DNA of 63,365 nt from Stentor roeselii (Eukaryota; Ciliophora; Heterotrichea; Heterotrichida; Stentoridae): the NCBI GenBank assembly GCA_006503475.1, contig RSEH01000269.1:1-63365 (forward strand). The letters are read 5' to 3'. Under the pieces are notes generated by a model, which was given only the letters and a program-made list of their open reading frames with translations, had not been told where the DNA came from and ran no database searches. This document shows, piece by piece, positions 12,719 to 36,749 of the stretch. The position numbers and the translations under genes were made by a program. Positions within the stretch are counted from its first letter, which is position 1. Every line of letters starts with the position of its first letter.

Positions 12719-15700
12719 CTAAGGCTCTTCTGGATTCCTCAGGTTCGCATCAGAAATAATGTCGTAACTTGAACTGCAGCTATAACTAGCTTCTGCATCT
12801 CGAGGCGTTGGTCCAGAAGTAACAAGGATTTCACTTCTTTTTTTATTTTCAACTCGAGCAATTTCTTCTTTTGGTTGTGAGATTTTGATGAAAGATGAAA
12901 GAATCAGCGCATAAAGAATCTCAAGCGTTGCAATATCGAAAAGTAAGAAAATAAGCCAGTTAGTTATCCAGTATTCAGTCCAAGCCTTGCAATAATAAAC
13001 AGTCATCACAATGATTCCTACGAAAGAGCCAAGAATGAAGAAAAGGCAAACTGGAAGAGTGATATAATGATATTTCTTACCTTCTAACATGTAACCATTC
13101 AGTAAAAAGATGGGTATCGTGAAGGCCTGAGTCAAAGCCCAGCCCGCAGCTCCTCTTCGAAGCTGTCTTCCGTAAAAGTTGCTGAAAGAATTATCACTGT
13201 CATCATTCGTTTCATCCCAGTGATAATGAAAAGCTCCGATAAGGGCAAGCATCAGTAATTCAGTTGTTAATATTTGGATGATAATCACAGATCTTCTCAT
13301 CATGTTTTGTTTGAAGAACAAAGAAGTGAGAGGGTAAAGAAGTAGGAATGAGTTGACATTCGGATTTCGCGTTACTTCTCGATCAGCTAGTTTCAATATT
13401 AACCCACAAAATAGTATCATGAAGATTAAAACTGACATTGTTGCTACTGGCCCTGCTCCAACTTTACAATCATCGTCATCATCACCATTAGATTCTTCTA
13501 TAGAGAAGGAAGACAAGTGCTCTGTGATCAGAGTGATATTTTCTCCGTCATTTTCTCCTATTCTGCAACCTGCAGAGTCCCAAGTGTTGTTACCTACCAA
13601 ATAAACACATTTATAAGACTTGCTTGTATCATAAGTCCCTTTAATCCTGATTTCAATTCCTTCTTTTGACTTGATTTTCACATCATTTTCTTCATCTAAC
13701 CCAAAAAGTTCTAAACCGTTTTTATTATTTCCAGTTTTTTTGAAAGTGACTTCGAAAATTTCTCTTTGGTCTGAATAAGAAGAAACAGTGATGTCATAAA
13801 TCGAGTAAGTTTCAGCAGCTGAAGTTCCGTTTTCATCAGAGTTCTGTTCGTAAAGATCTACAGGAAACTTCACAGACATTTTACTTCCTGCTGAAAATTC
13901 ACCTTCTGTTAACTTGCTGCTGTCTGTTCTAGTCCTTGAGTAGTTGTTTTCAGTACTTCCTATTGTTTTGTAAGCACTTCCTTTCAAAGCGTATTTTCCG
14001 TACAAGTTAAGATATTCGGAGATAGTTTCAGCGTCATAAGCAGGCATCATATATGAGAAGATTGTTGTTATATCTGAAAATATTTGCTGGGTGATTTGTT
14101 GGCCATATTTTAATATCATGGTATTCATGAATTCAGTAGTATTGATCTTCATTTCAATGCTGATATCAGCACCTGAAATTATACTGTTTTCAACAAGTTT
14201 TTTCAAGGTGTTGATCAGACTGTCAAAAGTCGGGTCATCCAATTCACTAGACCCAAAGTAACTTACAAGTTTTTCAAATAAAAATTGATAATCTGTGTTA
14301 TTTTGCACACTTTTCGAATAGTAAACAATGGCTGAAGGAGTTTCATCAATGTCTTCTACATCTTTATTATAATCAGTTGGAATATAAAGCAATCTTGAAT
14401 TTGGTAAAATTTCTCGAGTGCCAAAACTGCATGACAAGTCAAAATCGCAAACTCTGTAAGCTGCGGTATCGAAACCATCAGGCAGTCTCAGTTTGAAACT
14501 AGAAGAAAAGACTGGCCTTGTTAGCCAAAGATAAATTCCTTGGGTGTAAAGTCCGAACTGATAAATAAGGATGGAATCACTGTCGACATCATAGCATCTA
14601 TTCGCTGAAAATACATATTTTCCGTTATCGTTCTGGGTAACTTCAAAGCTATCACATATCGGAGGCGCATTCACATATAAAGAAACTGAGGCCGTTGTGG
14701 CAGATTCATCATCATCTCCAGAAGCCTTCAAAGCAAGTCCAATAGTATATGATCCTCCTTCAGTTAAAGTAAATTCTTCGAAGTACAAGTAACCCTGACT
14801 CGTGTCAAGCCCGTTAACTGAAGGACTGACAGTCCATTTGATTTCAGGAATCCCATCGATTTCCCAAGTGGGCTTTAATAGTAAAGGTCGGGCGTTATTG
14901 AGACTACCAGTGACACTAGGCATGAATATTTTCCCTTTGATTTTTCCATTGATATATAAAAGAACTTCAGCAGTTCCTGACTTTTCAGGAGTAGTTCTTT
15001 TGACAGTGACTATAAAGTTGTAGTATGATCCACTTTTGAGATTGGCGCTTAAAACTTCAAGGTTTTCTGATTTTTCTTGTCCTAGAAGAGCATTTCCATC
15101 AACTCCTTTGCAATCAGAAGCACCTTCCTTGCACGACCACGAGTAAGAAAATTCACTGAAAGTTAGATCATCAGGGTCACTTGCAATGACACTCAGTTCT
15201 AAGTCAAATTTATCAGAAACACTTCCAGGAGCTCTACTCAATGTTACCTGTAAAGGACTTGACTCAGTTAAAACATTAATCGAAGCACTTCCTGTAATTC
15301 CTTTCGCTGAAGTAGCCAAAACACTTAAGGTGTAAATTTTTCCTGCCTCCAAAGTCCCTGACTTCAAAAATAGAAGATTAGGATAAAGAGTAGATAATTG
15401 ATTAAGCAAATCACTATTTTCTTTCCCATCGACTAATATTTTCCAAGTGTAAATAAATCCATTTTCTCCACAAGTATCAGTGATTTCAGCTTTAATAGGC
15501 AAAAACTGCGAAACTTTGTAGTTCACTGATGTTCCAAGAGGAAAGGCAACTGTTAGAGTCTTTTCACTTTTCAGCTCGATTGTCACTTTTAAGGAACTTG
15601 AAGTGTTGAAATCTTTGTTTGTTATTGTGAGGGAAAGATCGAAAGTAGAAAGGGTACTGGGAAAATTGTTTAGGTTTAGAGAAAGTGAACTTTGAGTTGT

Positions 15701-18700
15701 GTTTACAATTAAGACGTTTACTGATGCTTCTGTGGAAGACCAGGAATAAGAATATCTTTCGTTGAAAATAGTTGTGTAGACCTTTAGTTCAGTTGATCCG
15801 CATGATGTTGAGAATGTTGAAGGTGCGAAAATGTTTATTGGAGGGACTGGCTTACTGAACTTCAAACTCACTGGTAATGATAGCTCATTAATATTTTGAT
15901 TGCATGATCCTTCTGGTGATTTCTGGACTGAACTTGGGTCTATGGTCATAGTGAACTCCACAGCATTAATGATGGACTTGAAGTTAAGAGATAGATTGCG
16001 ATTCGAAATCCATTGTCCACTATCAAAACTAGCTTCATACTCTTTGGGAATAGAAAAAATTGTGAGCCATTTACTTGCTTCATTGAGCATTTGAATGTTG
16101 GCCGGAGTGAGGAATTCAACAATAATTCGTTTGAAATCCGACCCAAAATAACTATTAATTTCGCTTGGCTTATAGAAATACCCACAAGTTGTGCAAAAGT
16201 TGTTTTCAGACTTGAACCCTTTGTTGCATTCACAAACTTTTGTGTCATTATTGAACAAACTGTTCAGAGCACAATTGCAGACTCCAGTTTCGTTCATTCT
16301 CGAGTTATTTACACAAGTGAAACAGTTGGTCGCGTTATACTCTATGAAGCACTTGTCATCTTGAATGGCTTTTGCACTAATCACATCAAAAACAATTGTT
16401 GTATTAACTGGGTAGTTCAAAGCACTGAAATAACATGAAAATTTTTTGATTGAAGTGAAATATAAGAAGAATGTCATTTTACCAGTTTTGCTTATTATTG
16501 AATTGTTGAATAATATGGTCCCGGTGTCACATGTTACACTTACGGTAGTTTCGTTTTTGTATAGAGAGGAAGAGTAGCCATAAAGCTCAATCGGGAATTG
16601 ATATAGTCTATAAGAGTTAAGACTACTGATAAGACTTGAATTATAAGAAATCCTTTCAAGATTTTCAACTATTGTCAGTTTTTTTGTAAAAGTTGAATTC
16701 AAATTCAAGTTATTTGCTGTAAAGTCAAAAGTACCAAGTGTCTTGAAAGGTGTTAATAAAGTCCCTGTTCCATTCGAAATAGAAAGTGCGAGAGTGATAG
16801 AACTGGCTGATGATTTCGCGTTGATAGTAATCGAATATTTATCTATGATGCTGCCGTTCAAACCACTGGGTCCTTCCACTTTTCCTGTGAAGCCTAAAAT
16901 CTGTGAGTTATTAACAAAGCTCAAATTATCAAAAGACGTGTTCATAGTTAATGTATTTTTATATCCATTTACCGAAATGGATTTAGAAGCTGTCAAGCCA
17001 CTATCAGAAAATGTTAAGTTGTAACTTTCAGCTTTTTGTAAGTAAATAGTAATTTTACCGCTTGGGCCTATACCTGATGAATTTCCTGAAAATCCTAAAT
17101 TTTTCGAGTCGGCTAATGTTACATTGACTGGCAAGATGTAAGGAAGGTTGTCGTCTCCTTCACATTTATAGGATAATTCAAGAGGGAAATCAACATGTTG
17201 TCCTGCAGGGGATGTGATTATTATATTCTTTACATAGTTTGAGATTTCATTTGTGGTAATCGAGTAATTTACTTCTTTCATTTCATCTTGAACTATGAAT
17301 ATAAATTTCCCTGATGATAATATTTGTAGGTTATCGAAAATGTATATTGAATTCTGGTTTGTTGTATAAAATTCAGAAGATAGACTTGTTGACATGATTG
17401 TTCCTGAATTTTTTGTATCGTTTACAGCCAAAAATTTAATCGTGAAATTTTGATTTGGCAAAGCAGTGCTCTGCTTGTAATAAGAACTAACACTGAGATT
17501 AAATGAGTCTCTACTTGTAGTTGCCTAAATAATTCTTACATTTTGTGAAAATGATAAGCTAAATTTCGATAAAACGTATGCTAATTTTGTAGAAGATTTT
17601 ACGGAGGAAATACCCGCATTAATCGGAACTATAGAAAAGTAAAATTTACCAGTTGTATCAATCATCAAACTGGAAAAGTTGATATTTCCACCTTGCGAAG
17701 TTTGGTTTATTGAAATTTCTTCAAAATCGCTGCAAGGATATGAAGTTGAATCAACACAAATAGTGCTGATTTGAAATGTTACATTTTCCGCATTTGTTAA
17801 TAAATCTATACAGCTGTCATTCGAATAAACTCCTGCCAAAACATCGAAATTTTCTCCTACTTTTATTGAATCAGGATATTCAGTTGCACAAAGAGTTGCT
17901 TGATCAGTTTTCATGAAAATTTGATCTGAAGAGATGCTTTGTAAAGAATTATCAGCATCTAATTGAATATAAAAATACTCAGCTTGTTGAGAGTAAAAAG
18001 TGAACGAAACACTTCCTGTGCTGTAGTTGAAATAATAATCATTAATTATAAGGCCAGTTGCATTAGAGTTTAGACTGTAATTATTTTCAAGAATAAACGC
18101 GTTGTCATCAGTTCCGATGACATTATAATTAACAGTAATATTATTGAAAGTGATGCTGTCTATCAAATCGCTAGAAGTTATATTTTTTATTTTATTTTTC
18201 ACCAAAAAGTAAGAAGTGAGTTTTGCCTCAACATCTTGAGTAGCTGAAACATTTATCGCAAAATTTCCGTAAGATAAAATCCTCAAATCAGTGAACTTGA
18301 CTGTTTGTCCTTCTTCAACTGTTTCACCATCAATTGAAATTCCTGAGTAAATATCAGATTCGTTGACAATTAAAGAAACCTGAAAATCATATGGACCATT
18401 GTAAAGTTCAATCAAGCCACTTTCATCTACTACTGAAACATTAAAACTAAACAAATCGTCACTGGTTTGAGGATAATTGAAATCTTCACCTTCAGAGATA
18501 TTGAGAGCGATTCTGCTTTGATAGACATAAAAATCGCAAATTCCCTTCGTGAGTCCATTAGTTGAATCCGCAAATATGAAAATTGTTTTGTTTCCTGATG
18601 ATTTAAAGTGTAAGTCAGTGAAATTCGGTCTTCCAGTCGAATCATTTAAAAGAAGATTTCCCATTAAAGATCCATCTTGAACTATCAATTCATATGACGT

Positions 18701-21700
18701 ATTAAGAAGGAAACTTTGATTATCTTCTCCAATCGCATCGATCATCAAATCAAAATCAAAGAAACTAGAAAGATTCCTGGAAGTTGAACATGAAAAGTTC
18801 GTTAAATTGTTCGATATAATAAAATGATCAGTCAAACCAGAGTTCACAACAGAAGAGTTCGACTCTGCAAGAATTTTGAAATAACCAGAAGAAAGTATTG
18901 ACAAATCTTCGAAGTCTACTGAGTAGTTTGTCAAAAGTTTAGAAGTCTGGCCAGAGAGAGTAAAACCTGACTGGTCAATATATTCTTGCACCTGTTGAAG
19001 GGATAAAGAGATGTTCAGGGTGATTGATTCGAACTTTTCTTCTGTTACTGGTTTATTATCTTTGTCGAGCAAACTTATCATCGCATTGAATTCAGATGAA
19101 TCAACTGGCATCGGATTTAAAGTGATTTCCAGGATTTGATTAGAAATATTCAGGTGTAAAGAAGCGTTTGCAAAGATTTCGTCTGTTGAACAGTTGAACC
19201 ATAGCGTGAGGCTACCGTTAAATTCACTGAAAAAGCGTACAGTTGTTGTTTTTCCTTCATATAAAGTAATTGAATCAGCTTTGGTGAGATTTTCATCAGA
19301 CTCTATTGAACAGTTGCCGAGGAAACTAAAGTCATCATCGCCAAGTACATCAAAGGTGATGTTAAAGTACTCAAAAACAGTGAAACTTTCCTGTGATGCA
19401 GTAATTGTCAGGTTTTTCGGGTAGTTAGTGACGTTGAGGAAGTAATCACTCTGCCAAGTTTCAATAAAATCGCAGGAAGATTTAATTATCAAGTTGAAGT
19501 GACCACTTGACAACACGCTTACTTGATCAAATTCATAAAATCCATTAACCATTGAATTACTTTCCTCTCTTACAGTGATGACTTCTCCTGAATATTCAAA
19601 GTCTTCATCTTTCACAATCAGCAAGTCGAGAAGACAAGAATCTGGCACTGAATGACTAATGTTTTGTTCTTGTTCATTGTCCATTAACTGAACTGTGAGG
19701 TTAAACTCATCTCTGCTTGAAGTCACCCAGGATAATCCGGAAGACTTTTCTATTTCATAAGGAACAATCTTTATCTTCAGCCCAGTGATGAAAAGAGTAT
19801 CGTTTAATTCTTTTGATTTAATTTCAATGTGATTTTCTCCCAGTTCCTCAATAAAGAAATCTTGATCAGCACAGTTTCCATTTTCATTTGAACAAAAAGT
19901 TGAATCACTGCTGTTGAGATTAACTATTTCTATTTCGCAATCCAGAAGAAAAGCGTTGTCATCATCTCCGATCAGAGATAAATTCAGACCTGGACTATAC
20001 ACCGTCATATTTTTCTGAAGATTCAAAAGCGACTTCAAGTGATTCGTGGAATTTATACTGATACTCGCAGGTTCGATGATATTTTTTAAAGAACTTGAAA
20101 GAAGAAGTTCGAAGTTACCTGAAGACAAAATTTGAAGTACGACTGAAGCTTCTCCATTTGAAGCGGATTTATTAAAACTGCCATTTATCATTTTTTCAGA
20201 GTCGAAAATCACTGTTTGTCCTGAGTGGTCTTCTGCAATCCCGACAAGTTGCAAGACAAGAGGATATGACCCATTTTCTCCAAAGTTTTTATTCTCAATG
20301 TTTCCCTGACTGTTTAAAATTGAAACCAAAGCTGTTAAGTTCGAATGTGAATCACTTGAGTTAGTTTCTGAGTTATTTTCATCAAGCAGGGTGAAATTGA
20401 AGGAAAGTTTGTTTGGAGTGATTTTTAGTTCATTTGAGAGAATACCTCCGCAAGATGTTATCAAGACGAATTCTTGAGTTGAATTCAAAAACAAGGTCAG
20501 GTTTTCTACACCGATTGAAGTGTTAAATCCAATGATTTCAGTTTCGTTCTGATCCTGGATAGTTCCTAAGCACTCATCCAAGTAATAATTATCATCATCT
20601 CCGAAAATTTCAATCATTATCTGGAAGTCAGTAAAAACATCGACTACATCACTCATCAACGTTAAATTCACTCTGCTGATATTATTGTTTATCGAAAATT
20701 CCTCTGAAGTATAATTTTCTAACCGCGAATCGCAATCACTGTAAAAGTGAAGTTCGAATAATCCTGAAGAAAGGATGAAATTGTCTGTAAAGTTAACACT
20801 TCCTTCAAAAATTGTACTTTGAAGAGTTCCGTTAATCACTTCTCCTGAGTAATTTTTAGAGTTGGAAAAAACGATAGTCACATTGCAGTTGTCAGTTATT
20901 CCGAAAGTGTCTTGAATTTCATTATCTTTATCGTAAACTAAAAATTCTAGATCAAGAGGAATGCTGCTGTTTTCAGGCTAAGTAAAAATTACTATTTTTA
21001 GTTTTGATGGCTTGAGGATCCATTTGTTAACTGTGAGACTGATTGGATCAGAGGATATATTGTCTGCCTTTGCTGAGATATTGAATGATCCTGTTTCGTT
21101 GATGAATGATTTTAAAGTGCAACTGCCTTGAAGAGGTGAGCAGGATTCATTGAAGTTCCCCAAGTCATCTGAAAATTCGATAGTCTTTTGAAGGATAAAA
21201 GCTTTTTGATCTACTCCTACAACCCAAGCAGTTAAATTAAAAGGCTGCTCGACACTGAGACTATCATCAGAAACAGTGAAATTTACAAACAAGATCTCGT
21301 TTTCAATTGTAAAACTTTCAGAATATCCTTCAAATATTTCAGGATAGGTGTTTAGTCCTTTTACCACAAAAGCAAAGTTACCTGAGGAAAGAACTGACAA
21401 GTTGGTGGTCCATATTCCAAAAGTTGTATTAAAAGTAATGTTTTCATATTCTAAATAGTTGAGTTCTTCATGATTATCAACAACAATTCCAGAATAATTG
21501 TTATCTAAAGGCACAAGTGAAATCATCAGTTCATAAGAGCCGTTGTTGTGCAAGCTTGACTCAATTTCACCCTCTGAATCTAAAACTTTTACAGTGAGAT
21601 TAAAAACATCATCACTTCTCGAAGGCTGCTTAAATCTTACAACACCTGAAAACTCTAAACTCACATTCAGAGGTCTTAAAATAAATTGAAAAGACCCTTC

Positions 21701-24700
21701 AATTCCGTTACAATAAGCTGTAAGATGATTGATACTGGTATTCTTGAAATAATAGTCAAAAACAGCTTCTCCTTCAATAGCTAACTGATTCGGTAGCTGA
21801 TTTCCAAGATTATCCACAATTTCAACCAGGCAATCTTCTGCATAGTAAAAGTCATCATCTCCAAGAACCGTGATATTAATAGTCGCATTTTTATAAACAG
21901 AAAGATCATCTGGGATCACTTCAATAAGAACTGTTTTTACCAGGTTTGTCAAAGGTCCTACGCTGACTGAATCGTTTTGCAGGTCTTCATGATTTACTTC
22001 AATTAAAAAGTAACCTGCTGAAAGGATTCGATTTTCCGAAGAGTTGAAAGACCCGTTGTCAGTTATTAAATAATTGAGATTTGGATTAAGACATTCGACA
22101 TCCCAAGTGCAATTTATGCTTAGACTCAGGTTTAAAGCGTCGGCTAATGGAAGGAGATTGAAATTGTTGTCTAAGATTGTGATGTTGATGCTGAAAAAAG
22201 TGGAACTGTTGATTGGCTGAATAAATATTACTATCGGATCGAGATTTAAGTTTATTCTTGCTTGGGATATTGTTAGGTTTAACTGGTCTGAAGAGTAGTT
22301 CAATGAGTTGTTTGAAGTTGTGACGTTTAAAGTAATTTCTCCGGATTTTGTTGAGAATATTGTTTTTGTTAAAGTTTTATTGTTGGAATATGTCAAGGTT
22401 TCTTCTAGGGATGAAACTCCTTCGATTTCGTTGAATGAGAGGCTAGTTTCTCCAAGGAAAAGGTTTTCATCATCTCCAAATAATTGAACTGAGACTTCAA
22501 ACGCTTGAAAATTCGTAATTGAAGTATTATCACAGAAGATTTTACTTCGCTTTACTTGATTCGCAATTGAAAAATCTTCACTGTTATTAGTGTTGAACAA
22601 TAAATTAAAAAGACCTGAACCTTCCGCCTCCACCGTGAATATCCCTGAAGACAAAATCGTGAAGTTAGAAGTTGAGATCTTTCCGAAGTCACTTATAAAG
22701 ATTCCGAAAGTTTCATCTATTTCGATTGAATCTTCATAATCGTATATCACGAGTCCTGAATAATTAGAATCTTGATTCTTTAATGAAAAAATTATTTCAG
22801 ATCCATTTGAATTCGGTAAAAGCTCACCGTTCATATCTTGAATTTCTGCGGTGATCACGAAAATATCCAAAGAGTTGCTCGGCTGTATGAAATTTACGGT
22901 TGAATTCAAAAATATTGCTAAGGAAGCTTTTTCTATATTTAAATCTAGTGAAATTGATTCATATTCTTCAGAATTTTCAGAGGTAGTAGCGTTGAAATAA
23001 AAGGATCCTAAACCTTTCGAGTACCCTGAAAATTTAACGTCTTCTCCTTCGATGCTCGTTAAATTTTCTGAATCAAAAATAATTTCATCATCATCGGATA
23101 AGATTTCCACAGTTGAATTCAGTTTGTAAGGTTCATTGTCTTCTCCGAAAAGACTCACAACTATTTCGAAGTCTTCAAAAACAGTGTAATTTAATTTAGT
23201 TGCATTCAAAACACTATAAGCAACTTTATTTGTGATTGTAAAACTAGGTGTTTCATATTCATCAATGCATGAACTGAATGAATCGACGACTTCTGCGTGA
23301 ATGTTGAAAGTACCAGATGATAAAATTCTGAAACTTAAAGTGCTAAACTCTCCTAGTGTAGTAATATAGCTTCCAAATAGTCCAGAACTTATAGTCATGC
23401 TTTGATTATTATCATAAATTGTCAATCCTGAATTAGTTGAATCATTAGCGATCAAAGTAACATTTATTTCTATATCTGTAGCATTGGGAAGCAGGTCTTC
23501 ATCACTGTTTTGCACTTCAACAGAGAGAATAAAAGAATCTAGAGAATCACTGGGCTGCATGAAACTTACAGTTGAATTCAAAAATATTGCTAAGGAAGCT
23601 TTTTCTATATTTAAATCTAGTGAAATTGATTCATATTCTTCAGAATTTTCAGAGGTAGTAGCGTTGAAATAAAAGGATCCTAAACCTTTTGAGTACCCTG
23701 AAAATTTCACATCTTCTCCTTCGATGCTCGTTAAATTTTCTAAATCAAAAATAATATCATCATCATCAGCTAAGATTTTCACGGTTGAAGTCAGTTTGTA
23801 AGGTTCATCATCTTCTCCGAAAAGACTAACAACTATTTCGAATACTTCAAAAACAGTGTAATTTAATTTAGTTGCATTCAAAACACTGTAAGCAATTTTG
23901 TTTGTGATTGTAAAACTAGGTGTTTCGTATTCATCAATGTATGAACTGAATGAATCGACGACTTCTGCATGAATTTTGAAAGTACCAGATGACAAAATCC
24001 TAAAACTTGAGGTGCTAAATTCTCCTAGTGTAGTAATATAGCTTCCAAATAGTCCAGAACTTATAGTTATGCTTTGATTACTATCATAAATTGCCAATCC
24101 TGAATTAGTTGAATCATCAGCGATCAAAGTAACATTTATTTCAATATCTGTAGCGTTCTGAAGCAAGTCTCCATCACTGTTTTGCACTTCAACAGAGAGA
24201 CTAAAATAATCTTGAGAATCACTGGGCTGCATAAAACTTACAGTTGAATTAAAACTAACAAAAATTTTCGCATTCGAGAAGCTGACATTTGTAGTATTCG
24301 AAAGATGATCAATGATTGCATAAGAAGCAAAGACTTCAAACTCGAAATTTTCAGTTTTATTTGAAAATCCAGTAAAATTGTTGAAATCTCCATCACTGTA
24401 ATCAAACCAGTAATCAACTAAAGAAACTCCATCTAAATCACTGATTTCAACCTTTGAGTACCCAAGGAAATTATTGTTATCCTCACCTTTAAGTGCAACT
24501 TGAATATGAAATATTTCAAAGACTGTTGGAGAACTCGGACTATATTCAAGTTCTATTTTCTTCACTTTATTTGTTATTGTTATTGTTTCAGAAGTGCTTT
24601 CAGGAACCACTGAATCAAATTCAACTGCTTTTGCTACTACTTGAAAAGAGCCTGATGATAAGATCCTGAAGCCTGAGGTCGTAAATTCTCCTTCTACTGT

Positions 24701-27139
24701 TGAAAACTGTCCAAATACCCCTGAAGTATTTGATAACTTTTGATCTTCGTCGTAGATGACCAGCCCTGAATAGTTTGAATCAGTGCTGATTAGCGAAAGG
24801 TCGAACAATAAATCATCAGCACTTGTAAGAATTGATTTATCGCTTTTAACTACTTGAACAGTTATATCGAAATAGTCATCTGATGAACTTGGCTGTTTAA
24901 AACTTACGGAACTGTTAAAAGTTATTAAAAATATTGCATCGACAAAAGTGAGAGTGATTGAATCAGAGATGTAATCATCTGTGTTGTTTGTGATTGATAC
25001 ATTGAAAGTGAAAGTTCCTGTAGTGTTTGAGAATCCGGAAAACTTATTGGTGGATTGAGGATTGTAGTCGATTTCTAAATTTTCAAAAGTGATGTTTTCG
25101 AAATTGGTTATTTCCATTACTGAGTCTCCAAGGTATTTGTTGTTGTCTTCTCCGAATAATTTCACAGTTATTTCAAAATCCTCAAAAACTGACCAAGTAG
25201 TCTTTGTTGCTGTTAATTCACTTGAATTCACTAAGTTGGTCACAGTAAATGATTGAGATTCATTCATAGTTAAATTTTCACTAGAAGCCCTAATCTTAAA
25301 AGTTCCTGAAGATAGTATCCGAAGATCTGTAAAATTAAAAGGTCCATTTTCCTCTAACTCCCAGTTTCCCATCACAACAGAGCCTGAGCAATTTTCAATT
25401 TCTTCAATTTCTAAAACCACAGTATGTTCATATTTTTCTTCATAATCCTCTTCAGTGCTATTCAAAATCGAGACTTCCACATAAAACGACGAAGTACTTG
25501 TCGGCTAAATAATGAATACAGGACTCATTTCAATAAAAAGCTTGCTTTCTTCAACTGTGAAGTTTGATTCATAAGCAATTGAATTTACTTGATATTTCAA
25601 CGAAGCTTCTCCTGCTGACAAAAAGTAAAGTCCTGTAGTTGTGACAAGTCCCGTTGAAGTTGAATAATTCAAATCGCCTTCCAAGCCCAAAGAGCTTTCT
25701 TCAATTATCTCCAAAGTAGAAACTCCAAGATATAAGTTGCCATCATCACCTATCACTTCAAAGTCAATCACAAAATCAAAATAGTTGCTGATTGGCTGAG
25801 TAGTGAAATTAAGAGTTTTTATGCTGTTCGTTGATGTGAAAGTGTTTGATTCGTTTGTAGGAATTCCAAGTGATGAAGCATTCAGTGTGAACTCGAAGTT
25901 ACCTGAGGATAGCACCTTGATGTCTTCTAAGGTAAAAGGATTTGATGAGACTGGACTGATGGTAGCGGAAGATTCGTGAGTTGAAGAAGAAATCATGAAA
26001 ACACTTCCTGAATTTGTATCATCGATGCTATCCAGTGATATGGTCACTGCAAATGTTCCTAGTTTCGATGCATCAATTAATTCGCCGGAGTAAGTTAAAA
26101 TCTCTGCTGAAATGTTGAAAAAAGTCTTGCTATTTGAGTCCTATTTAAACTTTACGCTAATTGTCTCAATTTCGATGTATGCTGGATTTACAGTGACTGA
26201 ATAGGTTTCTGATATATAAGAGCTCTCATCAGATTCAGTGACATTAACAATTAAATTGAAATTTCCGTTCTCTTTGAAGTAAAAACTTAAGTCTTGTTCA
26301 GTTGTCTCTATTCCACTTAAATTCGACCATCCTCCTAAAGTTGACCCATCGTCCAATGTGAGTTCAACTGAATATCCATCTAAAAAGTCTTCGCCGTCAT
26401 CTCCAACTACAGTCAAATTGAATACATTTGTTTCATACTGATCGACTGAGTTGTTTATATTCAAGATGATGTTCTTAATTGTGCTGTTCACATTGAATTT
26501 AGAACTTTCGCTTTCAAAGGTGTAAATATTATAGTCAGAGTAAGAAATTTCGACTGTAATTTTCAGTAAATAGGTCCCTGCATGAGTCACTCTTAAGTTG
26601 GTAAAAGGACAACTAGATGTTGTTTTTGTTAGAGTTTTAGTTCCTACTAGTTTTGTTGAGTCGTCTGTAGTGGATGCGTTTGAATCACTTAGTTCTAAGG
26701 TGCACTTGAAGCTTGCATCGGGATATAGAGTGTCTGTGGAACTTACTGATATGCTGAACTCAGTTCCAATTGTGCAGTCCTAAATATTGTTTACAGCTGG
26801 GTCCACAGCCTGCAGGGTTATATCTGCTACTGTGATATCAATAGAGGTAGTGTCCGATCCGCATGTCATAGTGATCTGAAACGTTCCCGTATTCGTGAAA
26901 ATATATTCAAAATTTACTGGATTTGTTGAGCTGATGGTATGGCTTAAGGAAGAAATATTTTCAAAATCCATAGAATCTGATGATATGCTAACACTCATGT
27001 CAGTGGTAGAGTCAGTGCTCAAAGTTAAACTCGAGACAGAGTATACTGTTACTGGTGTATCTCCGGCGATTTCGCATGATTGTGCATGAGAGATCAGAGC
27101 TAGCTTTACAAGTGTTAACACGTAAACGAATGGCCCCAT
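12719..27139 (-). CDS. Giant polycystin-1-like/REJ-GPS membrane protein
   Basis: Twelve exons and eleven 15-nt introns give about 4,751 residues. Start: MGPFVYVLTLVKLALISHAQS, a signal peptide; an ATG 24 codons upstream would bury it. Exons in order: 27139-26795, 26779-26156, 26140-25520, 25504-24908, 24892-24242, 24226-23570, 23554-22898, 22882-22232, 22216-21641, 21625-20993, 20977-17540, 17524-12719. The ectodomain is an array of about 200-residue modules, many with an ILSSGxF turn and a GDD/GED turn, likely beta-sandwiches, rich in N-x-S/T. The last exon adds a Cys-rich EGF-like segment, an Ig/PKD- and REJ-like region, a GPS-like motif (CVYLVGNNTWDSAGC ... EHLSSF), five membrane segments and a Ser-rich tail. 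Polycystin-1 also has a PLAT domain and more membrane segments; both are absent here. Probably a cell-surface adhesion or sensing protein (inference). The downstream 28145-35439 gene is its paralogue. Confidence 0.85.
17525..17539 (-). other. 15-nt intron 11 of the giant gene
   Basis: GTAAGAATTATTTAG, phase 0, between SLSFSQN and ATTSRDSFNLSV. It separates the intron-poor module exon from the C-terminal exon. Confidence 0.9.
20978..20992 (-). other. 15-nt intron 10 of the giant gene
   Basis: GTAATTTTTACTTAG, phase 0, between KPSKLKI and PENSSIPLDLEF. Its TAG is in frame, so splicing is required. Confidence 0.9.
21626..21640 (-). other. 15-nt intron 9 of the giant gene (no in-frame stop)
   Basis: GTAAGATTTAAGCAG, phase 0, between LEFSGV and PSRSDDVFNLTV. 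Unspliced it would read VRFKQ. Confidence 0.8.
22217..22231 (-). other. 15-nt intron 8 of the giant gene (no in-frame stop)
   Basis: GTAATATTTATTCAG, phase 0, between LNLDPI and PINSSTFFSI. The intron-free paralogous junction LNPMPVDSSEF later in the gene lacks the five extra residues. Confidence 0.8.
22883..22897 (-). other. 15-nt intron 7 of the giant gene (no in-frame stop)
   Basis: GTAAATTTCATACAG, phase 0, between IFLNST and PSNSLDIFVITA. Confidence 0.8.
22898..24226 (-). repeat. Recent tandem duplication of one exon (exons 6 and 7)
   Basis: Exon 6 (24226-23570) and exon 7 (23554-22898) are both 657 nt and encode nearly the same 219 residues; by eye roughly nine in ten residues match, and a long terminal stretch from NLTSIEGEDVKFSGYS to IFLNST is the same in both. 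The two introns ahead of them differ at one base (GTAAGTTTTATGCAG and GTAAGTTTCATGCAG). The duplicated unit is therefore one exon plus one intron. Confidence 0.85.
23555..23569 (-). other. 15-nt intron 6 of the giant gene (no in-frame stop)
   Basis: GTAAGTTTCATGCAG, phase 0, between the two nearly identical exons. Confidence 0.8.
24227..24241 (-). other. 15-nt intron 5 of the giant gene (no in-frame stop)
   Basis: GTAAGTTTTATGCAG, phase 0, between VSFNST and PSDSQDYFSLSV. Unspliced it would read VSFMQ. Confidence 0.8.
24893..24907 (-). other. 15-nt intron 4 of the giant gene (no in-frame stop)
   Basis: GTAAGTTTTAAACAG, phase 0, between ITFNSS and PSSSDDYFDITV. Confidence 0.8.
25505..25519 (-). 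other. 15-nt intron 3 of the giant gene
   Basis: GTATTCATTATTTAG, phase 0, between LFIEMSP and PTSTSSFYVEV. The only intron here with T rather than A or G at position 4. Confidence 0.88.
26141..26155 (-). other. 15-nt intron 2 of the giant gene
   Basis: GTAAAGTTTAAATAG, phase 0, between IEIETIS and DSNSKTFFNIS. Confidence 0.88.
26780..26794 (-). other. 15-nt intron 1 of the giant gene
   Basis: GTAAACAATATTTAG, phase 0, after the signal-peptide exon, between QAVDPA and DCTIGTEFSISV. Confidence 0.88.
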
Positions 27140-28144: not shown

Positions 28145-31100
28145 CTAACCGATGATTTCATTAAAATTAAAATCAACTCTCTTCTCCTCACTCTCACTTA
28201 CTTTCTTTTCTTCATTATTTCCTTCACAATCATAATTTTTCCGTTTCTGAGTATTTTCATATTTTTTCGCTTTCCTCTCATTCCACCTATTCAAAACAAA
28301 AGCATAAACAATCTGAAAACTAAAAAAATCAGCGACCGTAAAAATGCCCCAATTAAAAACCAAAAAATAGCTCAAACCTTCACAAAATTTAACAGTAACA
28401 AAACAACAGAAAAAACGCAAAAGACCATAGCACCCGCACAAACAATCAAAGCAACTCTCTGAAACAATTTCCTCTTGACACTCAAAACATGAAAGCGAAA
28501 AATCGGTAAAGCAATAAATTGACTTAAAATCCAGGCAGCAGCTCCAGGTTTAAGACTTTCCAATTTAAAGTCTCTGAGACTTTCTTGTTTTTGACCTTTG
28601 AAGAAGAAATACTGAAAATATCCAATCAAAGCCACGAGGATCATCTGAGAGGTGACCATTTCAATGACTACCAAAGACCCCTGGCCATAGGTTTCTTGGC
28701 TGAAAATTCTAATTGCAGGGTGTAAACGTATAAAAGATTTAGAATTTTTCAAAGAGCAGGAATTTTTTGTTTTATTTTTCAGACAGTAAAGGGCGATTAT
28801 CATGATGGAGACTAAAGATGCCATGATCAGCAACGGTCCGAAGCCTTCTGTGCAAATGAAAGTGAAGTCTGATGGTACTGTCTGGACTGAGTAAATCGAG
28901 AAATGAGGGACTAACAACGTCACTTGAGACTTAATCGTTTTTATGATGCGACACTCGCTGGTAGTCCAGGTGTTATTTTTTGACAGATATTTGCATTCTA
29001 GTTTTTTACTTAAATCAAAATCGCCTTTCAGCTCTATTTCAACACCCTCTGAAGAAATAACAGTAACTTCTTCATCCTCTTCATAAATCTTAAGGCCATT
29101 GTTGAAATCTCCCACTTTTCTCAATGTGACGTCAAAGACTGGAAAGTCTTTAAAATAAGAATGATTGATAAAATCGTAAATATTTTTACCCTCATCAAGT
29201 GTGAAATTTTGTGGAAATCGAACATTCAAACCTACAGACGTCCAATTCTCTGAAATTAAAAAATCTTTACTTGTTCTAAACCTGGCGAATCCAGTTGTCT
29301 CATCAATAACTGAGGTGTTAACAACTTCGTTTTTCATTGCAAAATCACTGAAGTACTTCAAGTTTTCTGCTATTTTTAAAGGCTCAAATACATTCATAAG
29401 ACGATTGAAAACTTTGACAAGCTTTTTGAAATTTTCTTGACTGAGGCTTTGTTTGTATTTTTTTAGAGTATTTTTAATGAAATTTGTGATGTTTGAAGTA
29501 AAAGTCTTGTCGATACTTGGATCGTTTGGACTTTCAGAGATTATTGAATTTAAACAACTGGAAATACTGTCGATTGCTGAGATGTCGATGTCAGTTGAAG
29601 AAAAGTACTCTTTTAACTTATGGAATAATAATTTTTGGTCTTTTGTGGCTTTTATTTGATTTGAGAAGTAAATTATTGAGGCTGGGGTCTCGTCGATGTC
29701 TTCGATGTCTTTGTTGAATAATTCTTTTGAGATTGATAGGAATCTGGCGGTTTTAGTTTTTGGCTTTTTTGATGTTGAGATTGAACAGGATAGTTCACTG
29801 TCGCAGACTTTTAAAGATAAAATTTCAGCGTCTTTAGGGATTCTGAGCTTGATTGAAGGGAAAGACATTAGTTTTGTCAGCCAAATGTCTGAACCGTTAT
29901 TCCTATATCCAAACTGATATTGAATACTAGAATCACTGTCTTTATCGATACAGTCCTCAGCACTTAGTAAAAGTTTTCCAAATTTCTCTACTTTCACTAA
30001 AAATTTTTCACAACTTGGTGGAGAGTTGACATATATTCCGACAGAACTCGTTACAGAAGTATCATCAAGCTCTCCAGATTTTTTCATATGTATCTTGAAG
30101 ATGTAATTTTTGCCCGGTTTTAATGTTCCAGCAGGAATATGTAAATATTCATTGTTATATAGTAATTCATTTTCAGGTAATGGATCAATAATCCACTTAA
30201 CATCCTTTTCGCCATCCAAAAATAACTTCGGTGCTAATACCAAAGAATTATGTTCATTGATAACTTTCGGTAAATTCATCATAATAATTTCTCCTCTAAT
30301 CCTATCACTAAAGTAGAGCTGTACTTCAGCTTCTGCCTCTTTAAACGGTTGAGTCCTTCTAACAACAACCGAAAATGTCCAAAGTGAGTTATTTTGAAGT
30401 CGACTATTCAATATTTCAATAAAACTTCCAGACTCAAGCTGATTTTTTTCATTATTCAGACAATTTTTATTCTCACCATCAAAACATTTCCACTCATAAG
30501 TAAAATTCGAGTATTCTATTTGGTCCGGGTCTTTGACAGTTGCTTCTAAAGTCAAGTTATAAAGAGTTGAAATATTCCCAGATACCCGATTTAGCGACAA
30601 AACCAAAGGAGAAGAAAAAATCATCAACTTCGCTGAAGCCAAGCCGATAACATCAGACGAGTTGACTGTTAATGACACATGCGAGCTGTAGTCAAATAAA
30701 AGACTTGCTCCATCGATGGTTATCATACTCGAAGTATTTGAATCGATACTCGGCCCTAATTGCTTCACGACTTCATCATCGCCCTTGGTTTGAACCAATG
30801 TCCAGTTATAGTTGCTCTTTCCACACAAGTCAAGCACTTGCGCCTTGATTGATAATTTTTCAAAAGTTTTTATAGGAATTATTTGGCCTTGAGGGAAAAT
30901 CACGAGAATTACTTTTTTATTTGAAATTTCAATTATCTCAGATTTTGTTCTTGAAGTGTTGAAAAAAGAGTCAGTTACTGTCAAATTCACATCAACTTTA
31001 TCAGTAGATATATTTTTCAGGTCTATTTCTAGGGAAGATGAGGTTTTGTTTAACAGCTGAATGATCAGCAGAGGTTCACTTGATGACCAGCTGTATAAAT

Positions 31101-34100
31101 ACCGAGAGTTTCTAACTGACGCGGAAATTATTATCAAGTTCTGTCCACATAAGAGAGAAACTTTTCTTGGTGCTACTAAACTGAACTCAGGGACTGGTTT
31201 ATTATCTTTTACTATCAGAGGAATACTCAATTCTTCAATCTTATCATCACAGTCCCCATCAGGTTCTTTCTGAATCAAATTCGGATTCATTATCAAAGTA
31301 CTGTTATTTCCATTCACAGGTCTCTTAAAGTAAATCTCAAATCTCTTACTAGAAATCCATTCAGCATTTGAATAGTAACTCATCAATTCACCTGGCAAAG
31401 TAAAAGCATTTTTCCAATTTCTTTCCTCATCAATCAACCCCATATTTGCAGAACTTGCGAAATCCACAAAAATTTTTCTAAAATCTTCTGAAAAATAAGC
31501 AGTTATATCTTTTGACTCAAAATAAAACCCGCAGGTAGAACAGAAGTTATTAACTGACTTGAAACCTTTAAGGCAGATGCAGGATTTTAAAGTTGAATCA
31601 AATTCGCTGTTTTTTGAACATTCACAGTTTCCATCCTGATTCATTCTTGAATTTGAAGCGCACTTGTAGCAGGATAAGTCGTAGTTTTGAATGAAACACT
31701 CTTTATCGGTATTGAGACGATCTTGAAATATTTCAAATTTTAGTTTTAAGGACTTGTTATTGTCTTCAGCTTGAAAAGTGCAGTCGTAGGAGCCTTTTGA
31801 TTGAAAGAAAAGAAAGAAAATAGCCTGGCCTGTTGATGTGATTATTGAAGAGTTTAGAAGACCTGAATTGTCGGAACATGAAAGGTGGATGATTTCTTTG
31901 GATAAGTACAAAGAGTCGTCGTAGCTGATTAGAAAAACTGGAAATTTGATTAAAGTTAATTCTGAAGATGGTAAAAATGAACTGTTATATTTCATGTCTT
32001 TTATTGTAGAAACGACTTTAAGGGTCTTTGAAAAGGTGCACAAGAGACTTGGACCTGGGATAATCGTCAGGTTGTAAACCCCTGCAGTTTTTATTGAGAA
32101 AGAAAAGTTAAAAACACCTTGAAAGGTTTCTATTTTTATGATTTCTAGCTTTTTATTAACTTCTGTTAAGAAGGCCTTATAACTTCCGTTAAATTTTTCT
32201 ATTTTTTCTGGGTCTTCTCCGAATACAAAACCATTCATTGTAAGTAATGATGAGTCGTTTACTGTTGTCAAGTTTTCAAAAGAAGCTCGTACTGATAAAG
32301 TGTTGTTTAAAGAATTTATAGAAAAATTTGTGAGAAGAGAAGGGTTTGCATCGGTTTTTATGAAAAAATCGTGAAATTTGTTGAGTTTTAGAGAAATGGT
32401 GAAAAATCCTGATGGTGAATCAGATGAATGAAGGGTCATACCAGTCATAGGGTATAAATGTGACTCGTTCAATGAAATATTTGTTCCCAGGATAAAAGGA
32501 TTGTCATCGTCGCCTATCAGGTCATAAAAAATATCAAAAGGATAGTTAACATAAACGAAACCTGGAAATTTCACATTTATTTGTTTTATGAAGTTTTCAT
32601 TGAAATCTGTTTCATAAGTCACGAAAGTCTGGTTATTTTTAATTAATTCAAATATAAAATATCCTGAACTCAATATAAATAGATTGTCAATTCTGCAAAC
32701 ACCTTGAAAATCAGTAACATAAGATTTAGACATGTTTTGGTTCAGCATTGTTCCTGATGCTGAAAAGTTTTTATTTGGATTTTTCCCAAATTTTAACTCA
32801 AAAGTAACATTCGGCACTTTTCTTCCATACGCGAATGACGAGATAGTCAAAGAGTTTTTCCTTCTGCTGTTTGTATCCTAAGTAATCCTTACTGGAATTG
32901 AGTTTGCGATAATAAAACTATTAATCGGTTTGACTTCTAAAATACTCTCTAAAATAAAAGAATAGGTTTCATTTTTTTCTGAACTTAAAAAAACAAGAAA
33001 CTTTGAAGGCTGATTAACAGTCAAATTATAAAAGTTCAAAAAACCATTCATACATGAAACTTTTCGAATTCCTGTAAAATTAAATTTTTCACATGAAAAA
33101 CTGGAATCTTCGACGCATTTCAAGTCGATATTGACAGAAAAATTGTTTGCTTGTGTCATGCGAATGTTTTTTATTTTATCTTTTGTGATAATGAAAGATA
33201 AATTGAATTCTGTATCTTGGAAGATGTTTTTTGGTAATTCTTTTGGAGATATGTAAGCTGGAGATACGTGGATTGCGAGATGGCTGGAGGTGTAGTTTGA
33301 TGAAGTGTTTGTTAATGAAATGTTGAAAGTGTAGTCTCCTGAGTTCTTGGGGAATAAGGTGAATATCAGAGGCTTTGAATATTCATTTTTTAATAATGGA
33401 TTTTTTTGGATTATGTCATCGATTTGGTTTATTCTTATGTCGGAATTTGGTAAATATTTGTTTTGGTCTTCGCCAAATAAATTTAATGTTAGGTTGAAAT
33501 CTTCGAAAACTGAAGGTTCAATATCTGATTCAGTTCTTATTGTACTGAATAATATCTTGTTCACTATTTGAAATGGTTTTGGGATAATAAATGAAGTTAA
33601 ATTAATTCCTGAAACTTTTAGTTTAAACTTACCAGATGAAAGGATTCTAAGATTATCAAAAGGAATAGTTTCACTTCCAGTTTTGGTTAAAATTCCTGTT
33701 ATATTATTTCCTGAAATATTTGTGTCGGGCATCAGTTCTAAACTAATTGTATGAAGGTTCTTGGATTTATTAGTTTTTGTAATATCGTATATACTCGCAT
33801 TTAATTTGAAAAAATCGCTTGAAGTAGGTATTTGGCCAATATTCTCAATAAATAATATGCTTTGAGAGACTGTAAAGTTAATAACCTGAGTAATATTTGT
33901 TGTAATAATTTCAAGTTTCGCTAATCCAGATCCTAAAAACATCAAATCATTTACCTTAAAGATTCCGTCAGAACTACTTAAATTTGTATTCCCTACTAAA
34001 CCCAAGTCACTTTTTTCAACAATATTTAAAAGAAAATCTTCTGAAGAGTAAGGGGCGTCATCATCTCCTAAGACATAAAATATGATTGAAAATTTGAAAT

Positions 34101-35439
34101 AGTTCGAAATATTTAACGTTGTAAAATTGTAACTAAGACTTTTTATAAATGTTTTCGAGGTGATATTCGAAGAAAATCCTTCTTGAATTTGTTCTCCAGC
34201 AGAAACTTTAAACATAAAAGAGCCTGAAGATAGTAGATAAAGCTTCTCAAACATGAAAGGATTTTTTTCTAATAAAAATTGATATTGGCCATTTGGATAA
34301 TTATTTGAGTCAATTTGAATAACTTTTTGTGAATTTGGGGTAATTGGAATTAATTCAACAGTAATCTGAGGTATATATTGTGGAATCGGTGTTTGGATAA
34401 GAACGTCTAGCATATTGGTTAATTCAATCATGAGATAGAAAGGACTGCGGCTGTTACTATCAAAAATTGTTGATTTTGAAGGAGATACTTTTAATTTTGC
34501 ATATATTACAATGAAAGTAATAATTTTTTTAAGTTCATTTCCTTTTTTATTATCATTAGAAACTATGAAAGTTTTTTGAATATTCTTTTCATCATGCGGA
34601 TATATATTGAAAGTAAAGTTTTCTATCGCATCTATATTTTCATAATTCTCGGACCTTATTTTTTCACTTTTTTCAAATTTGACGTTAAATTTTTCTAAAT
34701 AAGCTACAAAGTTTCGTCCAAAAGGTTTTAAAACGATTAAGTTTTCTTGATTAATTATTAAATATTTTTTACTAACTTGAAAATCTTCAATTTGATTTTC
34801 AATAAAAAAATATTCGCTTTCTTGAGTTTGTTGAAATTCGATTTCTAAGTCTTTTATTTCAATGATTATTTTCAACTTATAATTACCAGAACGACTCACT
34901 CTCATATTATAAAAAGTGCAAGTGTTACCCTCAAGTCGTTCAGTGTATCTTCTTCCGATTAGGTTTTCATTAATAATTTTATCATGATCTTTGATTAAAT
35001 CCAGAGAGCAAGTATAATTAAGATTTTTAGGTCTCGAATCATTGAATCTAATGGTATAATTAAAACTATCCCCGATATCACCAGGTTTTTTTTCATCAAA
35101 AGTAGAATTGAAGTTGATTCCTGTCAAATTTACTTGAAATACTTTTGAAGTTAAAGTATTGCATGATAAAGTTATGATAATAGTTCCATTTCTTCTGAAA
35201 TAAAACTCATATATAAATGAACTTCCTTTTTTCAAGTTGATTAGAGATTGATTATATATTTTTTCTATTGCATCTGAAGGGAAATAAGTCAAATTTACAT
35301 AAGAATCATTTAAAGCTGTTACTCGTACTTCTGAGAGAGAAAATAGTGAAGATGATATATTTGAAATAAAATCACAATCTTGGCATTTCACTAGCAGTGG
35401 CGTGAGGAATAAAAACAAAATATAGAATAAAAGTCTCAT
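28145..35439 (-). CDS. Second polycystin-1-like/REJ-GPS protein, with a frame change
   Basis: About 2,426 residues if one intron (32878-32892) is removed and the frame moves by -1 near 28384-28390. Start MRLLFYILFLFLTPLLVKCQ is a signal peptide. Four or so intron-free modules (LLSSGSF, ILSSGKF, ILSSGYF turns; GDDD turns) precede a Cys-rich EGF-like segment, PKD/REJ-like region, a GPS-like motif (CKYLSKNNTWTTSEC ... PHFSIYS), and five membrane segments. The layout and order match the gene at 12719-27139, which has more modules. Zero-frame reading stops after VVLLLLNFVKV; the -1 frame continues CEGLSYFLVFNWGIF, which aligns without a gap to CKAWTEYWITNWLIF of the paralogue. So the last membrane segment and acidic/basic tail (to EEKRVDFNFNEIIG) are lost unless the frame changes. 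Either programmed slippage at A-AAT-TTT, a missing base in the sequence, or a damaged gene. Confidence 0.8.
28384..28390 (-). other. Slippery-type heptamer at the frame change
   Basis: The minus strand reads A-AAT-TTT-G in the zero frame, which has the X-XXY-YYZ form of -1 slippage sites. Homology to the paralogue needs the frame to change exactly here. A lost T in the TTTT run would look the same. Confidence 0.5.
32878..32892 (-). other. 15-nt intron of the second giant gene
   Basis: GTAAGGATTACTTAG, phase 0, between IIANSIP and DTNSRRKNSLTI, again at a module start. Confidence 0.88.
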
Positions 35440-36749
35440 ATTTTTTATATTCTAATTCATTGTATTTTGATTTTATATAAAATAGAAGAAGCATTGATAT
35501 TCATATTATTTCAGCACTTAATAATCTTAGAATTAATTATTTTAGCTTTCATATCATCTTATCAAATAAAATTCAAAGTTTAAACTCTGAATAGTTAGAA
35601 CTTTCAAAGATTTCCTTTAGAGTCCTTATAAATCAAAATTAGATCCTGAAGTATTATAAAATTATTGTAATATTTTCTATCAAATGAAACACTCTGAATG
35701 AACAAAGAAAAATGTTGAAAAGAATCATAAAAATTTCTTGATTTTTTATCTTAAAAGCCCATTAAAGTTCATTTCTAACATTAATAATCTTATTTAATGT
35801 AAATAATTCGCTTATTCTAATCTTGATAATATCTCATACCTAACCTCAAAAAAAAAAATTCAATTGAAAGTACTTATCAAGTTTTTTGCGAAATCTTTGA
35901 TAAAGACATAAAAAAATCTAGAATTTTCAATATCTTGACATAGTTAAAATATAACAAATTAATGAATAAAAAAGATTGGTTCTTGCATACCTTGAAAAAA
36001 TCTACCAAAAAATTCACTAAAATACTTTACTAAATAATTATTGTAGTTTATAAATAAAGATATACAAAAATTCAATTAATTTTGAACATGATCAAAGCAA
36101 AAAATTTTTTCACCACTTCTTCAAACCAAAAATTTTAATCAATCGTTACACGTATTATCTAATTATAAAAATCTCATAAGAAAGCCTATATTACTTAAAT
36201 ACCATTAAATTTTAACTAAAATCCTTAAAAAACTCTTTGATTTGTATAAGTTTTATCAAAATAATATAAATGGTTTTTAAGTATGGATAATTTTTTAAGT
36301 CCAGGCCATTCCAAACTCCTATTCTCTCGAACAGTACCTTTCTAAATATCAACCGTGTTTAAAATCCTACCAAACCTTAATTATGAAAAATTAATAAATC
36401 TCCTTCCTCACCTTTTTACATCAATCCCAAATATTCCCTACCAAACAATCCAAAAACCTCTAAACCTCAAAAACATCTTTCAACCTAAAACTCACTCAAA
36501 AGATCATTAAACAAAAAACTCATTCCAAATCCCAATCAAATCCTTCAACCTTCGGCCATCCCCGTGATTGATTTCTTTAAAAAGGTCAAAAAGAAATTCT
36601 TAAAAACGCGGCTTGATCCATAGCGAAAGTCAAAAAAATCTAAAAACCTAAAAGCCTGACCTCAAAACTAAACAAAAAAAACCAGGACTAGAGTTGAAAG
36701 GAAAATAGAAACTAATTATGATAATTTTGAAAAATTTAAGAGAAATAGT
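35440..36749. other. Intergenic
   Basis: About 1.3 kb, no gene recognised. The part next to the zinc-finger gene (36,400-36,660) is rich in C and poor in G on the plus strand. Confidence 0.5.

Follow-up and report, generated by a model that had tools for sequence, protein, structure and literature searches.

Fifteen-nucleotide introns that appear to have spread with repeated modules, and probably in places to have become codons, in a family of giant genes of Stentor roeselii

The 63,365-nt stretch of Stentor roeselii DNA that we analyzed (contig RSEH01000269.1, hereafter the window) carries on its minus strand a giant gene in which nine consecutive exons each encode one protein module and lie between 15-nt introns. 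The reading which best explains our observations as a whole, and to which we give a probability of about 0.78, is that expansion of a repeat spread an intron already present in the ancestral module and that introns were later lost by two routes. The window gene is a member of a family encoding giant, probably surface-bound proteins, whose plan comprises an N-terminal signal-like segment, tandem modules of ~195 residues with two predicted Ig-like domains each, and C-terminal hydrophobic segments. The ancestral module would have held a single 15-nt intron, in phase 0, in the loop that joins strands 1 and 2 of its first domain, and unequal crossing-over of in-register modules would have altered module number, every new module bringing its intron with it. 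Repeat expansion of this kind would leave one intron per module, all in phase 0, and does not require breakpoints in the introns. Later losses would have affected individual junctions, for the most part in the 3' half, either by exact removal, in which the spliced length is kept, or by de-intronization, in which splice signals and any stop disappear from the 15 nt, which remain as loop codons.

The window gene (C195) runs in one frame from an ATG at 27139 to a TAG at 12721-12719, a length of 4,807 codons with introns and stop counted (Table 1). The frame is broken only by five in-frame TAGs, each of which is the last codon of a 15-mer of the form GTA.........TAG. Six further 15-mers of like make-up end in CAG and contain no stop, and if read through they would encode VSFKQ, VSFMQ, VSFMQ, VNFIQ, VIFIQ and VRFKQ. 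Among the first ten introns four carry a stop (26794, 26155, 25519 and 20992). An earlier note on this DNA had described nine one-module exons of 192-219 codons in phase 0 with 15-nt introns on either side, and its coordinates and lengths proved exact; exons 2-10 are in phase 0 throughout. Inspection by eye of exon 12 revealed a Cys-rich stretch and hydrophobic segments close to the C terminus.

Table 1. Coordinates of the exons and predicted introns of the window gene, of two putative de-intronized introns and of the adjoining family gene.
Feature	Position	Strand	Description
Exon 1	26795..27139	-	115 codons; hydrophobic N terminus resembling a signal peptide (by eye)
Intron 1	26780..26794	-	GTAAACAATATTTAG; phase 0; in-frame TAG; at module start
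Exon 2	26156..26779	-	One module, 208 codons
Intron 2	26141..26155	-	GTAAAGTTTAAATAG; in-frame TAG
Exon 3	25520..26140	-	207 codons; orthologous to exon 2 of C506a, C220 and C506b (100/99)
Intron 3	25505..25519	-	GTATTCATTATTTAG; in-frame TAG
Exon 4	24908..25504	-	199 codons
Intron 4	24893..24907	-	GTAAGTTTTAAACAG; no in-frame stop
Exon 5	24242..24892	-	217 codons; grouped with exons 6-8 in a clade confined to the window gene (96/88)
Intron 5	24227..24241	-	GTAAGTTTTATGCAG; no stop; breakpoint of the exon 6/exon 7 duplication near its 5' edge
Exon 6	23570..24226	-	219 codons; predicted fold of two beta-sandwich (Ig-like) domains, pLDDT 93.1
Intron 6	23555..23569	-	GTAAGTTTCATGCAG; no stop; 1 base different from intron 5
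Exon 7	22898..23554	-	219 codons; 93.6% identical to exon 6 in DNA
Intron 7	22883..22897	-	GTAAATTTCATACAG; no stop
Exon 8	22232..22882	-	217 codons
Intron 8	22217..22231	-	GTAATATTTATTCAG; no stop
Exon 9	21641..22216	-	192 codons; orthologous to exon 4 of C506a, C220 and C506b (98/90)
Intron 9	21626..21640	-	GTAAGATTTAAGCAG; no stop
Exon 10	20993..21625	-	211 codons
Intron 10	20978..20992	-	GTAATTTTTACTTAG; in-frame TAG
Exon 11	17540..20977	-	1146 codons; run of modules with intronless junctions
Putative de-intronized intron	19727..19741	-	Intronless junction; SGLSW occupies the intron site; nucleotides no longer intron-like
Putative de-intronized intron	18473..18487	-	GAAGATTTCAATTAT (EDFNY); between two predicted strands
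Intron 11	17525..17539	-	GTAAGAATTATTTAG; in-frame TAG; at a module junction, outside the range of the earlier note
Exon 12	12719..17524	-	1601 codons + stop TAG; more modules
Second family gene (C195b)	28372..35451	-	Adjoins the window gene; open for 853 + 1501 codons

Searches of the assembly at E ≤0.001 gave 18 family matches with a two-module query from the window gene and 98 with a C88 query, on at least 19 of 522 contigs (44.4 Mb), these match numbers being lower bounds. Six genes were parsed (the window gene, C88, C201, C220, C506a and C506b), and the analysis of module junctions covered eight, with C195b and C4 added; C512, which has frame changes, and C115 were excluded from every gene count. 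The single intron found in C195b, at 32892-32878, stands at an inferred module start. The module profile has 191 positions, and modules span 19,450 of 30,756 codons. One-module exons number 57 and are all in phase 0, with lengths of 189-219 codons (mean 199, SD 7.7), and C88 has 24 introns with 23 consecutive one-module exons of 189-204 codons. Seventy of the 71 accepted introns of the eight genes lie no more than three codons from a module start and none lies within a module, a count made after two pattern hits had been dropped by hand (70 of 73 with both); the exception is six codons from the module start, where the profile match is partial. One of the dropped hits, C506:29330, is past the C506b stop, and the other, C201:55089 (GTAACCGGCGCTCAG), has no A at position 10 and is 203 codons past the last intron, beyond the last strong module. 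Near-equal one-repeat exons, a single phase and a repeat number that varies between relatives make these loci tandem symmetric-exon arrays.

Introns are denser in the 5' half of the arrays, with 42 of 49 modules against 29 of 55 in the 3' half (Fisher P 0.0003, for genes that are related), and the bias is also seen without C88 and C201 (23 of 30 against 10 of 35, P 0.0002, again for related genes). In S. coeruleus introns are found in 18% of genes, most of which have one (PMC9505925), so the family genes are exceptional and their recognizable introns are repeat-borne. Likely 15-nt introns of other genes were observed in the window at 38223, 61810 and 62182 on the plus strand and at 55490, 48852 and 12015 on the minus strand; three of these six are in phase 2, unlike those of the family. 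Seven non-family introns, four in phase 0 and three in phase 2, were obtained by a scan which is mostly blind to phase 1, and the same scan gave 30 other stop clusters between open stretches without such a 15-mer. Several family genes lie near contig ends (C220 at 4.9-18 kb of 210, C506 at 2.6-26 kb of 167, C512 at 155-163 of 163, C201 at 46-59 kb of 62 and C115 at 84-90 of 90) and may be subtelomeric. Two introns of C506a, C506:6048 and 6669, are identical (GTATTAAATATTTAG, an 18-nt exact run with flank), and the exons behind them have only ~32% protein identity. In C512, at 159404 and 157474, the frame shifts by one base between exons, for which a 16-nt intron, an assembly error and a broken gene are alternatives.

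The eight genes contain 87 adjacent module pairs, 64 with an intron and 23 without; one of the former and four of the latter matched the profile only in part and could not be scored for length. At all 63 scorable intron junctions the spliced protein departs from the profile by -2 to +2 residues (mean 1.0). Among the 19 scorable intronless junctions, relative to the profile, seven have 0-1 extra residues, two have 3-4 and ten have 5-9; the two at +3 and +4 fit neither length class. One junction is orthologous in four genes, and there C506a and C506b hold introns (GTAAGTTTTATGTAG and GTAACTTTTATTTAG, respectively) while the window gene (EDFNY) and C220 (RNFNK) have exactly five more residues. 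At this one junction, in two genes, a same-length in-frame segment thus appears to occupy an orthologous intron site with the splice signals gone. The window-gene segment GAAGATTTCAATTAT matches the orthologous intron GTAACTTTTATTTAG at 9 of 15 positions, a likeness reached by 1.7% of random exon words, and likewise the C220 segment AGAAATTTTAATAAA. At a second junction the window gene (SGLSW) and C506a (EDNIL) have exactly five residues absent from C506b and C220, and the nearest introns are found in presumed tandem copies of that junction in C220 and C506b. The EDNIL nucleotides match one related intron at 9 positions and the other at 7, and those of SGLSW match at 5 and 4 and are not intron-like. 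At the nucleotide level two of the four inserts are therefore intron-like, one is borderline and one is not, with a joint P of 0.002 over all positions and of 0.024 for internal positions only, the splice-site positions being left out. The putative de-intronized segments have no GT at the start and no AG at the end.

The other six of the ten longer junctions are orthologues or copies of one old junction, ~six residues over the intron mean; no compared gene has an intron there, and length is the sole evidence for de-intronization at this site. Since the ten longer junctions are not independent (six share one junction and two a second), they represent about three or four events. Introns are present in direct orthologues for one of these, and the others point to de-intronization by length or by a tandem copy, with partial nucleotide likeness. 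On comparison of these sequences, 15-nt introns were probably turned into codons about three or four times, and the direction from intron to codons would follow from the intron being the common state. It is possible, although unlikely, that the longer intronless junctions are ancestral coding loops with later intronization, or ordinary loop insertions unrelated to introns. Such an origin would sit well with inserts whose nucleotides are only partly intron-like and with an oldest junction class that is ~six residues longer and not exactly five, and the direction of change is unreadable from paralogues alone. However, introns occupy 64 of the 87 module pairs and are found in all eight genes, wherever the alignment permits checking exactly five residues are inserted at the intron site, and no scorable intron junction has the extra residues.

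The proposal of the earlier note that a module and its 15-nt intron are gained as a unit held for exons 4-8 of the window gene, where three paralogues hold one exon. In a maximum likelihood tree of 57 modules, in which 25 of 54 inner branches are unresolved and the bootstrap had not settled, orthologous modules group at 97%-100% bootstrap. Exons 4-8 of the window gene group with exon 3 of C506a, C220 and C506b (97/94), and its exon 10 groups with exon 5 of the same three genes and exon 6 of C506a (97/86). From these groupings, the window gene has five modules, each with an intron, against one in the three paralogues. Between C220 and C506b an aligned pair of introns has on average 2.83 differences in 15 positions, whereas re-pairing raises the mean to 4.33 (P 0.003), which gives them the appearance of old, inherited introns. 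Placing modules and introns in one tree, also suggested in the earlier note, yielded no information at depth: over the 57 modules the distances between exons show no correlation with those between introns (Mantel r -0.02, P 0.67; r was -0.02 with the preceding intron and -0.05 with the following one), and a signal of joint history was confined to close pairs and to the C220/C506b orthologues.

We consider it quite unlikely that gain and loss were driven by classical exon shuffling, with introns at module borders acting as the breakpoints. A breakpoint does sit at an intron edge in the duplication of exons 6 and 7 (93.6% DNA identity): identity starts at ~24251 and, as we read the alignment, the crossover fell in a shared block made up of the exon end and the 5' half of the intron, within ~10 bp either side of the intron 5' edge. 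In addition, in 10 of 57 pairs of adjacent units the longest exactly matching run overlaps with the intron, where ~4% would be expected by length. The exon 6/exon 7 duplication is, however, the only dated event, and no excess of breakpoints at introns was seen in the 39 modules of two scrambled arrays, C88 and C201, where half-module linkage was r 0.29 across introns and r 0.36 within exons. Both values are far above that of shuffled neighbors (r 0.02, SD 0.05), and the bootstrap interval for the within-exon minus across-intron difference, -0.12 to 0.24, includes zero; without centering, the linkage in these arrays was 0.55 inside exons and 0.52 across introns. Linkage thus persists across introns, which indicates that older duplications mostly copied blocks running through them, and the view of introns as preferred breakpoints found no support in these arrays. 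Unequal crossing-over of in-register repeats keeps frame and spacing at any breakpoint, so an intronic recombination site is unneeded.

The predicted structures also argue against exon shuffling, as they place the intron inside a domain. AlphaFold modeling of exon 6 with the 17 window modules gave a mean pLDDT of 93.1, and the predicted chain of strands was read as two β-sandwiches, with a strand (203-208) at the exon end and the exon beginning in a loop. A module taken in its natural order (17870-18547) was also modeled, with 12 rows. This model, which had a pLDDT of 83.2 and is unreliable over the first nine residues, places strand 1 at residues 14-18 and the next at 33-40, and the intron site and EDFNY (21-25) would fall between the two. 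The intron site would thus be between the first two strands of the first Ig-like domain and not at a domain border, and the exon would be a circularly permuted module cut one strand off that border. Foldseek returned 172 PDB matches at E ≤0.001, a mixture of β-sandwich proteins with low TM-scores which included beta-galactosidases, invasin, intimin, transglutaminases, complement and PECAM-1 IgL1-2, and among which invasin and PECAM-1 are examples of tandem Ig-like proteins. Neither the C88 C terminus nor any of four pieces of the window gene had a Pfam match above the cut-off, and over the 17 window modules the best E value was 0.0024, with an Ig-like model in 1 of 17. A profile of the 17 window modules gave no match to PDB sequences at E up to 1. 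The Ig-like assignment is that of the predicted fold.

Introns of the six parsed genes were collected by pattern (GTA, nine bases, YAG, in phase 0, in stretches selected as open). Of the resulting 69 family introns 45 end in TAG and 24 in CAG, 24 have no in-frame stop, the AT content is 76.0% and 68 have A at position 10, while GTA and YAG were imposed by the search pattern and this part of the consensus was therefore fixed beforehand. With a position matrix built from these introns the lowest leave-one-out score was 7.70, which was exceeded outside introns by one of 27,142 in-frame 15-mers and, in the two remaining frames, by nine words and one word (exon background of 27,147 codons, ~1,180 of them past the C506b stop). 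Judged on its sequence, a chance origin of the intron pattern in the window is very unlikely. When the GTA pattern was not used, 228 kb gave 50 stop clusters flanked by open stretches of ≥100 codons; 46 fell in a GT..AG 15-mer, and the remaining four were all TAA and none TAG. In the six parsed genes, whose stretches had been picked as open, in-frame TAA and TGA are confined to introns and gene ends, and the genetic code to all appearances behaves as standard. Of 8,806 annotated S. coeruleus introns 8,005 (90.9%) have the branch A at position 10 of a 15-nt intron, and the AU content is 75.6% (PMC9505925), and ~95% of heterotrich introns are 15 bp (PMC11441545). The family introns have the length, GT..AG ends, A at position 10 and AU richness of heterotrich-type 15-nt spliceosomal introns, and from these features we infer that they are spliced.

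The stop-less introns might serve as optional five-residue loop cassettes, with de-intronization as the fixed end state of the same process, although we regard this as doubtful. As 24 of the 69 introns keep the frame and are stop-free, their retention would escape nonsense surveillance, and the Ig-like domain would gain a longer loop between strands 1 and 2. CAG-ended introns occur in runs, six in a row both in the window gene (24907-21640) and in C88 (53613-56577), and there are 13 adjacent CAG-CAG pairs (P 0.002); duplication in the window gene explains part of this clustering.

If the six CAG-ended 15-mers of the window gene were instead a conserved coding motif, V-x-F-x-Q before P, the exon array would be broken mid-way. 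This is very improbable, even though these 15-mers are stop-free and frame-keeping and V.F.Q followed by P resembles a strand motif. At 24 of 24 module starts in C88 and 14 of 15 in C201 the 15-mer is GTA...TAG or CAG, with another Val codon or CAA at no site, and the peptide between GTA and (C/T)AG varies freely (VPSNQ, VFDKQ, VISNQ). Other Val codons, and CAA, would be expected in a coding motif. In the exons of the window gene GTA makes up 61 of 269 Val codons and CAG 35 of 112 Gln codons, and six GTA and six CAG out of six would occur by chance with a probability of ~1e-7, or 2e-6 for five sites with two near-identical copies counted once. The single intronless junction of C201, moreover, has the spliced length. 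That TAG is read as Gln under an altered code, with no introns here, is hardly credible, for although the TAGs in the region 20993..26779 occupy places where other modules carry CAG, a sense TAG would not be restricted to GTA......A..TAG, none of the four stop clusters outside 15-mers in 228 kb is TAG, and seven intronless junctions have the spliced length. Both the conserved-peptide and the TAG-as-Gln readings were rejected on the evidence of stop clusters, module starts and codon use, and the identification of the six CAG-ended 15-mers as introns is supported by consensus, spacing and codon choice.

Repeat arrays of equal exons in one phase are known already, and so is de-intronization, which is rare. 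The LRR genes of Tetrahymena contain arrays of exactly 90-bp exons for which unequal crossing-over has been proposed (PMC6564038), and the Stentor family resembles them in being from a ciliate, in its tandem equal exons of one uniform phase and in a copy number that depends on the gene. Whereas the Tetrahymena exons encode LRRs, are in phase 2 and are separated by introns of tens to hundreds of bp (PMC6564038), the Stentor family has ~195-codon modules with a predicted β-sandwich, Ig-like fold, ~600-nt exons, phase 0 and 15-nt introns. Brown-algal ROCO genes, with 72-bp LRR exons and reported alternative splicing, are alike in having one repeat per exon and a uniform phase but differ in being in phase 2 and in encoding LRRs (PMC11378527). 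The introns themselves are like those of S. coeruleus, 15 nt long with GT-AG ends, A at position 10, an AU content of ~76% and a 5' bias (PMC9505925, PMC11441545, PMC9942806). Unlike S. coeruleus genes, which when they bear introns mostly have one, C88 has 24, all at repeat junctions; since most S. coeruleus genes are intronless, such a gene illustrates how introns can multiply without insertion, by riding on repeat duplication. Neither arrays of this kind with 15-nt introns nor heterotrich de-intronization turned up in a partial search of the literature. The stop-less 15-nt introns also carry a warning for gene predictors, as within repeats they escape frame checks.

Among fungi, no de-intronization was found in Cryptococcus, and fission yeast is reported to have one RNA-supported case, most of its candidates having been refuted by transcripts, with other reports cited there (PMC2740785, PMC3629103); the same caution applies to the Stentor segments. 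Conversion of an intron to in-frame coding sequence is common to the fungal cases and ours. Unlike the fungal cases, the putative 15-nt Stentor events would add ~five loop residues at three or four junctions of one family. As a 15-nt intron equals five codons, conversion may be cheap here, whereas the same reports give it as absent or rare in two fungal genera with longer introns (PMC2740785, PMC3629103), and the dependence of intron fate on size becomes testable.
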